Source: Betaproteobacteria bacterium
GTDB lineage: Bacteria; Pseudomonadota; Gammaproteobacteria; Burkholderiales; Rhodocyclaceae
Assembly (NCBI GenBank): GCA_009777245.1
Contig: WRMF01000010.1
Coordinates: forward strand, 1-64,000
Length of the DNA: 64,000 bases
Direction: 5' to 3'
Numbering within the stretch: position 1 is the first letter of the stretch; each line of letters begins with the position of its first letter. Positions 5,076-62,709 of the stretch are shown piece by piece. The translations under genes and the position numbers were made by a program. The notes below the pieces were generated by a model, which saw only the letters and a program-made list of their open reading frames with translations, was not told where the DNA came from and made no database searches.

Positions 5076-5592
5076 AAAATAGTTTTAAAAGGCGCAAAAA
5101 ACGATGTCGGGAAATTTTGACCGGGCGAGATAACGGAAAAGACGACGACGCAAAAGCGGGCGCGGCGGAAAAGGAAGGCAAAGGTTTACCGGCAGGAAAA
5201 CGATTATCGCAATGTAATATGCCGATTACATAGCGGGTGGTGCGGGTAACTCTTTGATTACAAAAGATTTTTTGCGCAACATTGTCTCTGCCTCCAATAA
5301 TAATCCGGTAGAAATCACCGGACGCCCGTCTCCCTGCCTTCGCGGAAGTGACGGGCTAGCGCCTGCGCGGAATGTTACCATCTAGTCGCCATTTTATCAA
5401 AGTGGATTGTTGTATACCTTCCGCACATAAAAATTTTGGGGACAACCAATAAAAAAACAACATTCTTCATAAAATGGACGCAATGCTGTCAACAGTCAAT
5501 TGTATTTACCCCAAATGATCGAACCGACGCTTAACGGGGAGCACGACAGGTTGATCAGAGGGGGCGCTTTGCTCCCACGCCCAATCAATCGT

Positions 5593-5722: not shown

Positions 5723-5870
5723 GACTGTTGGGTTGTAGCCTGTGCGAAAGAACGTTTGCATCTGACAGTCGCGCTATTTACAGAAAGCACTATAGATGGC
5801 GCTTCTTTTCGCTGCTGAACGAATGTCCTTTTATTTGCACGAGCTACTATATAGGCCTTGACCAAGGCGG

Positions 5871-20469: not shown

Positions 20470-20575
20470 TTGAGTCGCCTTTGCCTGAAGGCAAGGGATT
20501 CCTCGGTACAATTCAGGGGAGCCTTCGGCTCCCGGTGCGTCTCGCTCGACTCCGCCATTTATGGCATAGCCAGGC
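20470..20575 (-). repeat. Multi-hairpin intergenic repeat family, copy D (IS605-right-end-like)
   Basis: Reverse complement contains GGAGCCGAAGGCTCC...GAGGAATCCCTTGCCTTCAGGCAAAGGCGACTCAA, matching copies at 42939, 54357 and 56779. Confidence 0.7.
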
Positions 20576-20627
20576 GAGACCCGTATTCATTCGGGGGGCT
20601 ACAGCCTGCCCGATTTCGGGATTCGCC

Positions 20628-42795: not shown

Positions 42796-42938
42796 TTTTC
42801 GGAAAAATTTTGTTATTTTATGCGTCATATCAGGGGAATATAAGAAAAATCAATGGGATAGAAAAAGGTTTTGTCGACGACGGCTCGGCTTTGAATCCGA
42901 CTTGTGCGACGCAAGGTTTCGCCATATCTTGATTATGT

Positions 42939-43062
42939 GAACACGCGTCGAGCGCAATCCTCGCCATTTATGGCGAGGTGAGCGAGACAGTTGTTTTGTG
43001 GAGCCGAGGGCTTCTCTAACCTGTGTCGAGGAATCCCCGGCCTTCAGGCCGGGGTGACTCAA
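42939..43062 (+). repeat. Multi-hairpin intergenic repeat family, copy A (IS605-right-end-like)
   Basis: GAACACGCGTCGAGCGCAATCCTCGCCATTTATGGCGAGGTGAGCGAGACAGTTGTTTTGTGGAGCC...GAGGAATCCCCGGCCTTCAGGCCGGGGTGACTCAA. Confidence 0.85.
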
Positions 43063-54356: not shown

Positions 54357-54484
54357 GTGAGTTGCCACAACCTGAAGGTTGGGGCTTCCTCGCCACAGAT
54401 GAGGGGAGCCTCAATGCTCCACAAAACAACTGTCTCGCTCACCCCGCCATAAATGGAGAGGCTTCTTCGAGACACGTGGTCAAA
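54357..54484 (-). repeat. Multi-hairpin intergenic repeat family, copy C
   Basis: Reverse complement: ...CCTCTCCATTTATGGCGGGGTGAGCGAGACAGTTGTTTTGTGGAGC...GAGGAAGCCCCAACCTTCAGGTTGTGGCAACTCAC. Confidence 0.8.
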
Positions 54485-54649: not shown

Positions 54650-55708
54650 CTAGCGCATTAGCTGGTCGGCGATCAATCCGCCTGCTACTGCGCCACCGAT
54701 CGTTGCGGCAGTCTTGCCGCTACCGCTTCCGAACTGGTGTCCGATCAAGCCTCCCAGAGCCGTTCCGATGACCAGCGCGGCAATGCGGTCGGCCTCCGTG
54801 CGTTCATCGTACTCTTCCGGCTCCACTTCTTCCGGTGTCGGGTGGGGAGCAGCGGGAGCGTAGTAGGGCGCGTAAGGCACATAAACCGGATAGCTTACCG
54901 GGTAGTAAGCCGCCGAATAATAGGCAAACGGGTAGAAGAGCGGAATTCCAAAGTAGAAATAGAAGGAAGACCTGTAGCGATGATGATGGTGCGGCGGGTA
55001 GTACGGCGCATAGCGATACGGCGCGTAGCGGTATGTCGTATGGTAGTACGACTGGCGGTACGGCGCGTGGTAAACAGGCGTATGGCGCACAACCGGAGCA
55101 GGACGAGCGGTGGGCGCAGGACGGGCAGTAGGCGCAGGACGGGCAGTAGGTGCAGGACGGGCAGTGGGTGCAGGACGGGGCGCAGGACGGGCAGTGGGCG
55201 CGGGACGGGCAGTGGACGTGGAACGAGCGTTAGACCCGGCACGAGTATTGGACGCGCGAGCTATAGGCGCAAGATTAGCGGCAGGGAGAGCAGCGGGCGT
55301 AGAGCGAGCGGCAGGCGTAGCAGCAGCGGGACGGGTGACAGAAGCCGACGCGGCAGGTGTAGAGCGAACGGTAGGAGTAGCAGCAGCGGCAGGACGGGTA
55401 GCAGGAGCTGACGCGGCAGGGCGGGCGCTAGGCGCAGCAGAACGAGTAGCGGAAGCCGAAGCGGCAGGTGTAGAGCGAACGGCAGGAGCAGCAGCAGCGG
55501 CAGAACGAGCAGACGACGCAGCAGGACGGGCAGCAGGCCGACTGGCGGGAGCCGATGCGGCTGATGTAGAGCGAGCGGCAGCCGACGAATTTTGCTGCTG
55601 GAAATAGCGAGGCGCGGACGACTGGGACTGATTACGGGGCGACGCGGCCATTACGCTTGTGCTGGCGAAGGCGGCAGCAAAGAGGGCGAGCAGAAATGGG
55701 TAGCGCAT
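54650..55708 (-). CDS. Low-complexity (Ala/Pro/Arg/Ser) exported protein with C-terminal glycine-zipper 2TM-like domain
   Basis: Signal peptide MRYPFLLALFAAAFASTSVMAA; (TARPAP)n repeats; C-terminal ALVIGTALGGLIGHQFGSGSGKTAATIGGAVAGGLIADQLM. Confidence 0.8.
   Translation of the reverse strand: MRYPFLLALFAAAFASTSVMAASPRNQSQSSAPRYFQQQNSSAAARSTSAASAPASRPAARPAASSARSAAAAAPAVRSTPAASASATRSAAPSARPAASAPATRPAAAATPTVRSTPAASASVTRPAAATPAARSTPAALPAANLAPIARASNTRAGSNARSTSTARPAPTARPAPRPAPTARPAPTARPAPTARPAPTARPAPVVRHTPVYHAPYRQSYYHTTYRYAPYRYAPYYPPHHHHRYRSSFYFYFGIPLFYPFAYYSAAYYPVSYPVYVPYAPYYAPAAPHPTPEEVEPEEYDERTEADRIAALVIGTALGGLIGHQFGSGSGKTAATIGGAVAGGLIADQLMR
55100..55215 (-). repeat. 18-bp period tandem repeat encoding TARPAP
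   Basis: Repeated GGACGGGCAGTAGGCGCA-type units on the + strand. Confidence 0.8.
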
Positions 55709-55868
55709 GACAGTCTCCATGAAAAAAGCGTGTTCAAAAAACTCTTATATCTACTTTATACGCCTTTTTGAGCAAAATACTTGTGAGAGTTGGTAAAAGA
55801 TTTGTAAAAATTTGCTTCAGGGGCGTTTTCGGTTTAAGTTGATGTTCGTCCCCACTGCAGGATTCGCC

Positions 55869-56285: not shown

Positions 56286-56780
56286 ATGGCGGAAATAACG
56301 GATACTGACCGGCGCCTCTTGCGGCGAGCGATTGAGCTGGCGGCAGAAAACAGCAGGGAAGACCTGGAAAATCCTGAAGGCGGGCCGTTTGGCGCAGTCA
56401 TTGCGCGGGATGGGGAGATACTTGCCGAAGGCAGGAATCGGGCGCTGGCAACTCATGATCCTGTCGCGCACGCTGAAATTGAGGCGATTCGCGCGGCTTG
56501 CCAAAAGATACGCAATTTTCATCTGACTAATGCCACCCTTTACGCTTCTTCCGAGCCTTGCCCGATGTGCCTTGCCGCTGCCTATTGGGCGCGGATTACC
56601 CGTATTGTCTACGCCAACTCCCGCGCCGAGGCCGATTTCATCGGCTTTTGCGACGCGGATATTTATCGGGAATTGTCGCTTCCCGAAAAAGAACGCCGCA
56701 TTGTCATGATCCATCTTCCCCTGCCGGATGCTTCCCTTCCGCTCGATCTATGGAAGCGGCTGGGGCGGGCAATGTACTGA
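56286..56780 (+). CDS. Nucleoside/guanine deaminase-type zinc deaminase
   Basis: GGPFGAVIARDGEILAEGRN, HAEIEAIRAAC, SSEPCPMCLAAAYWARI; GuaD-like. Confidence 0.88.
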   Translation: MAEITDTDRRLLRRAIELAAENSREDLENPEGGPFGAVIARDGEILAEGRNRALATHDPVAHAEIEAIRAACQKIRNFHLTNATLYASSEPCPMCLAAAYWARITRIVYANSRAEADFIGFCDADIYRELSLPEKERRIVMIHLPLPDASLPLDLWKRLGRAMY

Positions 56781-56899
56781 ACACGCATCAAGCGCAATCC
56801 TCGAAATGAATGGCGTGGTGAGCGAGTTTGTTTTATGGAGTCGAAGGCTCCCCTCTTATGTGTCGAGGAATCCCCGGCCTTCAGGCCGGGGTGACTCAA
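56779..56899 (+). repeat. Multi-hairpin intergenic repeat family, copy B (overlaps the deaminase stop codon)
   Basis: GAACACGCATCAAGCGCAATCCTCGAAATGAATGGCGTGGTGAGCGAG...GTCGAGGAATCCCCGGCCTTCAGGCCGGGGTGACTCAA. Confidence 0.85.
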
Positions 56900-62126: not shown

Positions 62127-62709
62127 TGACTTCTCCTCAAGGCGGACGCCGACGGGCGGCGGGCAAAAAAGTGAAACGCGGATTATCACACAGATGTGGC
62201 TGTCCTGTGATGTTTCATCAAGTCAGAGGAGTGAGCCTGCGAACCAGGCAGGACGGGGTTTTCCGCCCACAGAAGCAGACGAAAACGCGAAACTTTCTTG
62301 TGCCTTTTGCCGATGGATTTCCCTGATCGTGAACACGTATCGAGCGCAATCCTGGAGCGTTTTTGATTTAATCCTGTACAGCAGATATAGATTTTTGCTG
62401 GATTCCCGCCTACGCGCCACACCCTTTTATAAAGGGGGCTAACCCCAATGCCGCATTACCGCCCAACGCCGCGTCGTCGCCGTAGGGGCAGACCCATGTG
62501 TCTGCCCATAGCGCGAACACGCCCCAACATCGGGCGAACACGCAGGTTAGCCCCTACAACACCCCTTGTCCGCTTGCGGGCTTGCAAGCCCCCGTCCCTA
62601 CGGGGGAACTCCTTTGGCTTCGCCGCGAGAGTAAATGACCGTTTGTCGTGTCAAACCAACCGTTTGTCAGTTTTTTCAAGGGAAAACAGTTTTGTGGACT
62701 AGCATTATC

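Follow-up and report, generated by a model that had tools for sequence, protein, structure and literature searches.

Results

A dispersed repeat in the window

The window, by which we mean the whole 64,000-nucleotide stretch analysed here, carries four full copies and one 5′ fragment of a short repeat, at all five places named in a preliminary description (Table 1). A covariance model built from 31 family copies, those of the window among them, matches each full copy. The target TGAA of copy 2 (56778-56781) overlaps the TGA stop codon of a cytidine-deaminase-type gene (56286-56780), and copy 4 adjoins tRNA-Gln. The places stood, but not the limits: the TGAA or TGAC that had been counted within the copies is the site and not part of the element, and the copy given as 54357-54484, itself upheld, now falls in a separate sub-family whose target code differs.

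Table 1. Positions of the repeat copies in the window and of the parts of copy 1; matches and E values are those of the covariance model
Feature	Position	Strand	Sequence or code	Basis or remark
Copy 1, target and left cleavage site (CL)	42938-42941	+	TGAA	Host DNA kept at left flank
Copy 1, element body (type a)	42942-43062	+	CACGCG...GACTCAA	Sequence and searches; match 42937-43062, E 4e-40
Copy 1, left guide (GL)	42955-42958	+	CAAT	Would pair with CL by the IS608 rule
Copy 1, left-end palindrome (IPL)	42959-42978	+	CCTCGCCATTTATGGCGAGG	Fold
Copy 1, second left-end hairpin	42999-43014	+	GGAGCC-GAG-GGCTTC	Fold; likeness to autonomous IS605
Copy 1, right guide (GR)	43031-43034	+	GAAT	Sequence
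Copy 1, right-end palindrome (IPR)	43035-43054	+	CCCCGGCCTTCAGGCCGGGG	Fold, covariation
Copy 1, right cleavage site (CR), element 3′ end	43059-43062	+	TCAA	Sequence
Copy 2, element body (type a)	56782-56899	+		Match 56777-56899, E 6e-32
Copy 3, element body (type b)	54357-54478	-	CL TGAC (54479-54482), guides GAAG/GAAG, CR TCAC	Match 54357-54483, E 2e-29
Copy 4, element body (divergent TGAA/TCAA copy)	20470-20585	-	CL TGAA (20586-20589)	Match 20470-20590, E 4e-23
5′ fragment	about 62329-62355	+	GTGAACACGTATCGAGCGCAATCCTGG, read TGAA/CACGTATCGAGCGCAATCCTGG	Sequence

The repeat is far more numerous than chance would allow. A genome-wide DNA search scored at least 40 copies at 81–100% identity, and covariance-model searches over a 409-kb sample (C1, C2 and the window) gave 17 strong copies, from which we extrapolate about 90 copies (95% interval 52–143) in 2.15 Mb. 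Most copies are 116–124 bp long, and the median pair of copies is only ~80% identical.

Other repeats share the window. One dispersed repeat, CTGGATTCCCGCCTTCGCGGGAATGAC, often in inverted pairs, occurs at 5588, 5699, 22298, 33423, 33534, 35003, 35125 and 62395; a further dispersed family, around TATTTACAGAAATCACTATA, occurs at 5744, 14239, 20154, 33575, 35325 and 44170; and a dense imperfect array based on 9-bp units fills 55076-55590 within the reading frame 54650-55720 (-).

Two unlike ends joined without genes

In an alignment of 32 copies the boundaries are sharp and the sequence outside is random; TGAA at the left is nearly invariant and preceded by T in 23 copies, and the right end reads GACTCAA. 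Following the target TGAA or TGAC come ~13 nt, a left guide (CAAT or CAAG) and the hairpin CCTCGCC-ATTTAT-GGCGAGG, which in type b is enclosed by an outer stem, GTGTCTCGC/GCGAGACAC. The middle consists of ~20 nt, a second hairpin with a 3-base loop (GGAGCC-GAA-GGCTCC and variants) and ~15 nt, after which a right guide (GAAT or GAAG), the hairpin CCCCGGCC-TTCA-GGCCGGGG, TGAC and finally TCAA or TCAC complete the element. Folded as a single strand, copy 1 reaches z = -4.7. Not all copies are intact, since the left hairpin is damaged (CGAAATGAATGGCG) in about 12–13 of 31 copies here; the same variant (L028, L018 and others here) breaks two stem pairs and is nevertheless widespread.

Autonomous elements share parts of this plan. 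Beside an IS200/IS605 tnpA on a Mycobacterium plasmid lies a left end whose hairpin and foot are identical to those of type b at 32 of 32 positions, a match that covers the palindrome corresponding to the IPL of copy 1, and TGAC...CAAG left ends adjoin tnpA in other Mycobacterium genomes as well. A pattern scan that took one genome per species recovered the TGAC-preceded left end from three betaproteobacterial MAGs, where the matches are full ~120-bp relatives of the window repeat, and from several Mycobacterium genomes; phage, plasmid and viral collections yielded nothing beyond the mycobacterial left end. Within the genus, autonomous IS605-type elements with divergent tnpA and tnpB have a left end in which TGAC, CAAG and a hairpin are followed by another hairpin, its loop GTA; their right end is GGAATCCCC...GGATGTCAA. 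In these elements, as in the repeat, IPL is followed by another hairpin whose loop is 3 nt long. Two of the three hairpins therefore make up the left end, leaving no more than the last ~35–40 nt as the right end, which bears out the IS605-type 3′ end of the preliminary description. The element thus has no genes: a left end with two hairpins is fused directly to a right end with one. Among the autonomous IS605 elements inspected, from the genus, from other families and from Mycobacterium, we found no parent with both matching ends (CR TCAC/GR GAAG, or CL TGAA/GL CAAT).

Two observations on neighbouring sequence types arose from these searches. The palindrome GCAAGCCCCGCCATTTATGGCGGGG also occurs in Omnitrophota (L127, L134, L136, L141, L145, L146), there as part of another repeat and mostly with GAGTCAACCCTGA and GTCGAATGGGTTGAC on its flanks. 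In two same-genus TnpB elements, the stretch upstream of the right end (L103 2984-3027, L105 3645-3688) matches RAGATH-18 of Rfam below threshold.

Candidate mobilisers

The search for tnpA and tnpB that the preliminary description proposed came back empty: neither Y1 TnpA (PF01797) nor TnpB (PF07282) has a match in this genome, whose draft assembly is 93% complete (43 contigs). Drafts readily miss insertion sequences, so the absence of either gene is not proven. Relative G018, which also has many copies, likewise has no PF07282 match, and its only Y1 protein is a RAYT-like PF01797 protein of 283 aa; other carriers encode larger PF01797 proteins of 230–250 aa. Among 120 relatives searched, several of the same genus encode TnpB, and TnpA of IS605 type too. 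The model matches 15 of 121 relatives, mainly of the same genus and some weakly, and 5 of 400 genomes of the order, a patchy distribution as expected of a mobile element.

The RAYT-like protein of G018 and the larger PF01797 proteins of other carriers, taken with copies that are dispersed, palindromic and mostly intergenic, could suggest REP/REPIN-type elements moved by a domesticated RAYT (TnpA_REP). We consider this highly improbable, however, as PF01797 is unmatched in this genome, a GTAG-type motif is lacking, the guides at the hairpin feet (CAAT/CAAG and GAAT/GAAG) correspond to the cleavage sites, and each copy has two different ends rather than being a REP or a REP pair.

The preliminary description also raised the idea that the copies give omega-RNA-like transcripts for a TnpB encoded at another place, the 3′ flank of each copy serving as the guide. 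The 3′ end, GAAT-hairpin-TCAA, is indeed that of IS605 right ends, several same-genus relatives do encode TnpB, and curated RNA families in Rfam give matches to the element, all sub-threshold (sot0042 at 17.6 bits vs 88 needed, HgcC at 16.3 vs 50). Against it, PF07282 is unmatched both here and in G018, and same-genus TnpB right ends finish GGATGTCAA, not GTGACTCAA. The ~150-nt reRNA consists of the tnpB 3′ end plus the right end (PMC8612924), whereas upstream of the right end here lies the left end, with no tnpB 3′ sequence; that two hairpins are the left end removes the basis for the omega-RNA label. Moreover, at the sole locus where we found a copy at a shared site in two species (L026 here and L153 in G018), the element is 78% identical and its coding flank 87%, which, so far as one locus can tell, gives no sign of post-insertion selection on the element. 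With no TnpB match, no tnpB 3′ sequence and no extra conservation at the shared site, the transcript reading is not supported, and we now think it very unlikely.

Stem covariation

The stem changes are as first described. Their covariation is modest among the copies of this genome, where 15 cells are double-changed and shuffles give 8.1, but real and strong when several genomes are compared. Over 53 distinct sequences from several genomes, in an alignment that was fitted to the model, 131 cells are double-changed vs 43.5 in shuffles, double changes occur in 23 of 33 pairs, and the covariation score is 0.235 vs 0.121 (0 of 500 shuffles; slid controls at most 0.071). Such covariation is to be expected because the hairpins must fold as single-stranded DNA for TnpA, and no RNA function is needed to account for it.

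Insertion sites and movement

In G018, a type-b copy sits inside an exonuclease V gamma (recC-type) gene, reading GCATGAC/CACGGG...GACTCAC/TTATCC, and the orthologous gene here reads GCATGACTTATCC. This empty site defines the G018 element as CACGGG...TCAC (120 bp), lying 3′ of TGAC without duplication; comparison with relatives, as had been suggested, thus yielded one clean empty site, of the TGAC type. For type a, one pair regains homology with the relative immediately 3′ of TCAA, and another site has TGAA on its left edge; these sequences lend partial support to an insertion 3′ of TGAA that would likewise leave no duplication. Three further copies of this genome (window 56779, L005, L023) compared with G018 gave no clean empty site. 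For two of the three the flanks lie on different G018 contigs, and for L005 only the right flank was matched; a rearrangement at or near these copies is possible. Six G018 copies (L162-L167) share the immediate flanks CTGGAGTAT...AAACCG, so a larger repeat probably contains them.

Movement has been recent, since L183 and L184, two type-b copies of this genome at different sites with unrelated flanks, match at 100% identity from end to end. This identity bears on the alternative that the copies are immobile relics, decayed autonomous IS605 elements that lost their genes and were kept as terminators or regulatory hairpins, as their mostly intergenic positions and the low identity of the median pair might suggest. 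That alternative is almost certainly wrong: length is uniform in most copies, the L183/L184 pair argues for movement as a unit, and the precise insertion into a coding gene of G018, with its empty site, contradicts it for at least one copy. Copy orientation shows no bias relative to GC skew (mean 0.0016, SE 0.0072), a null result for lagging-strand preference, although skew is weak in this genome.

Copies lie mostly between genes, but a few sit within long open reading frames and keep the frame, namely in exonuclease V gamma (L160, G018), dnaX (L131, Emb289P4bin18), a UPF0227 hydrolase (L129, a Casimicrobiaceae MAG) and an unnamed protein of this genome (L236). Read from the sequence, they add about 40 codons without a stop.

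Two target codes in one family

Guide tetranucleotides at the foot of the IS608 hairpins determine, by base pairing, the target and where either end is cleaved; CL TTAC goes with GL AAAG and CR TCAA with GR GAAT, guide position 1 pairing with cleavage position 2 and guide position 2 with cleavage position 1 (PMC5934647). The guide and cleavage tetranucleotides here fit this rule. In type a, CL TGAA accompanies GL CAAT and GR GAAT accompanies CR TCAA; in type b, CL TGAC accompanies GL CAAG (or GAAG) and GR GAAG accompanies CR TCAC. The two sub-families differ in concert at four positions, and the letters of the published IS608 ends include a pair between guide position 4 and cleavage position 4. 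Among copies that are related to one another, CL4 agrees with GL4 in 77 of 81 and CR4 with GR4 in 80 of 82; the left and right ends agree with each other in 80 of 83, a cross-end agreement that the IS608 rule does not predict. The autonomous elements we saw mix a TGAC left end with a TCAA right end. In many type-b copies GL is GAAG, at the cost of one expected guide pair out of three, and in copy L242b the left end is of type b but the right end of type a.

A tree built without the code letters needs only two to three switches, so the four-letter coupling has no phylogeny-corrected significance beyond common descent, and contingency p-values for it, which ignore relatedness, are not used here as proof. 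The coupling is a pattern that fits the known mechanism. TGAA and TGAC codes coexist in one genome, and it is quite possible, if on balance somewhat doubtful, that this mini-transposon family naturally re-programmed its own target, with the fourth bases of target, left guide, right guide and right cleavage site changing together and the two ends thereby staying concordant.

Discussion

We conclude that the repeat is in all likelihood a non-autonomous IS200/IS605-family element, as one proposal of the preliminary description had it, of the PATE or MITE type, ~116–124 bp long and moved in trans by a Y1 TnpA; sharp ends, an empty site, the guide code and homology to autonomous ends all point this way. 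In the mechanism we propose, a Y1 (HUH) transposase TnpA supplied in trans would bind the two ends, each folded as single-stranded DNA. Guide tetranucleotides, one at the foot of either end hairpin, would pair with the cleavage tetranucleotides CL and CR; the element would leave as a single-stranded circle and enter its new site 3′ of TGAA or TGAC, with no target duplication. The TnpA that presumably moved it is now absent from the assembly, either lost or unassembled, and the transposition route was probably single-stranded. No cellular function is needed to explain the repeat.

An element of this kind is known, and its two-code version is a variant worth testing; a limited literature search turned up no earlier report of two target codes side by side in a bacterial element of this kind. 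Should selection rather than common descent lie behind the coupling, the family would be a natural counterpart of engineered IS608 retargeting and would imply that the two ends are linked, something the IS608 model does without. The two codes also offer a natural data set for target choice by DNA–DNA pairing, previously probed by engineering IS608. The in-frame insertions in recC-type, dnaX and hydrolase genes suggest how such elements might add peptide segments to proteins. More generally, the case cautions against taking every multi-hairpin repeat whose 3′ end resembles IS605 for an omega RNA.

Comparison with known systems

The PATEs of Haloquadratum walsbyi resemble the repeat in being too short for a transposase, in lacking terminal inverted repeats and target duplication, and in their high copy number and subterminal palindromes related to IS605 ends; some are fused IS605-type ends, as here (PMC3119063). 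The host here, by contrast, is bacterial and not haloarchaeal, and the nearest carriers that have names are betaproteobacterial MAGs; the repeat has three hairpins and two target codes in one family, and no intact or broken tnpA was detected in the assembly. IS608 of Helicobacter pylori shares guide/cleavage pairing at both ends, insertion 3′ of a tetranucleotide, a second hairpin after IPL and a right code, GAAT/TCAA, identical to that of type a. It differs in its left code (TTAC/AAAG vs TGAA/CAAT or TGAC/CAAG here) and from the type-b right code GAAG/TCAC, and the repeat has no genes and is only ~120 bp long. The mycobacterial IS200/IS605 elements use a TGAC target and CAAG guide, likewise as in type b, and the left end in NZ_CP012886 is the one identical to a type-b copy at 32 of 32 positions; unlike the repeat, the element of Mycobacterium sp. 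SM1 is autonomous, about 2.25 kb long with tnpA and tnpB, and unlike type b the mycobacterial right end is GAAT/TCAA.

In ISDra2, too, a right-end hairpin is followed by TCAA. By analogy with its TnpB reRNA, the 3′ flank of the repeat could in principle be a guide, and the target begins TTGA in many copies, but the repeat has neither tnpB nor tnpB 3′ sequence, and its upstream hairpins are the left end. REP/REPIN elements with TnpA_REP are likewise dispersed, palindromic, non-autonomous repeats linked to Y1 transposases, whereas the repeat has no GTAG motif, has asymmetric ends and comes with no RAYT match in the genome. Finally, some copies of the Rickettsia palindromic elements lie in frame within protein-coding genes, as do some copies here; the repeat differs from them in its sequence, in its IS605 mechanism and in the small share of its copies that lie inside genes.
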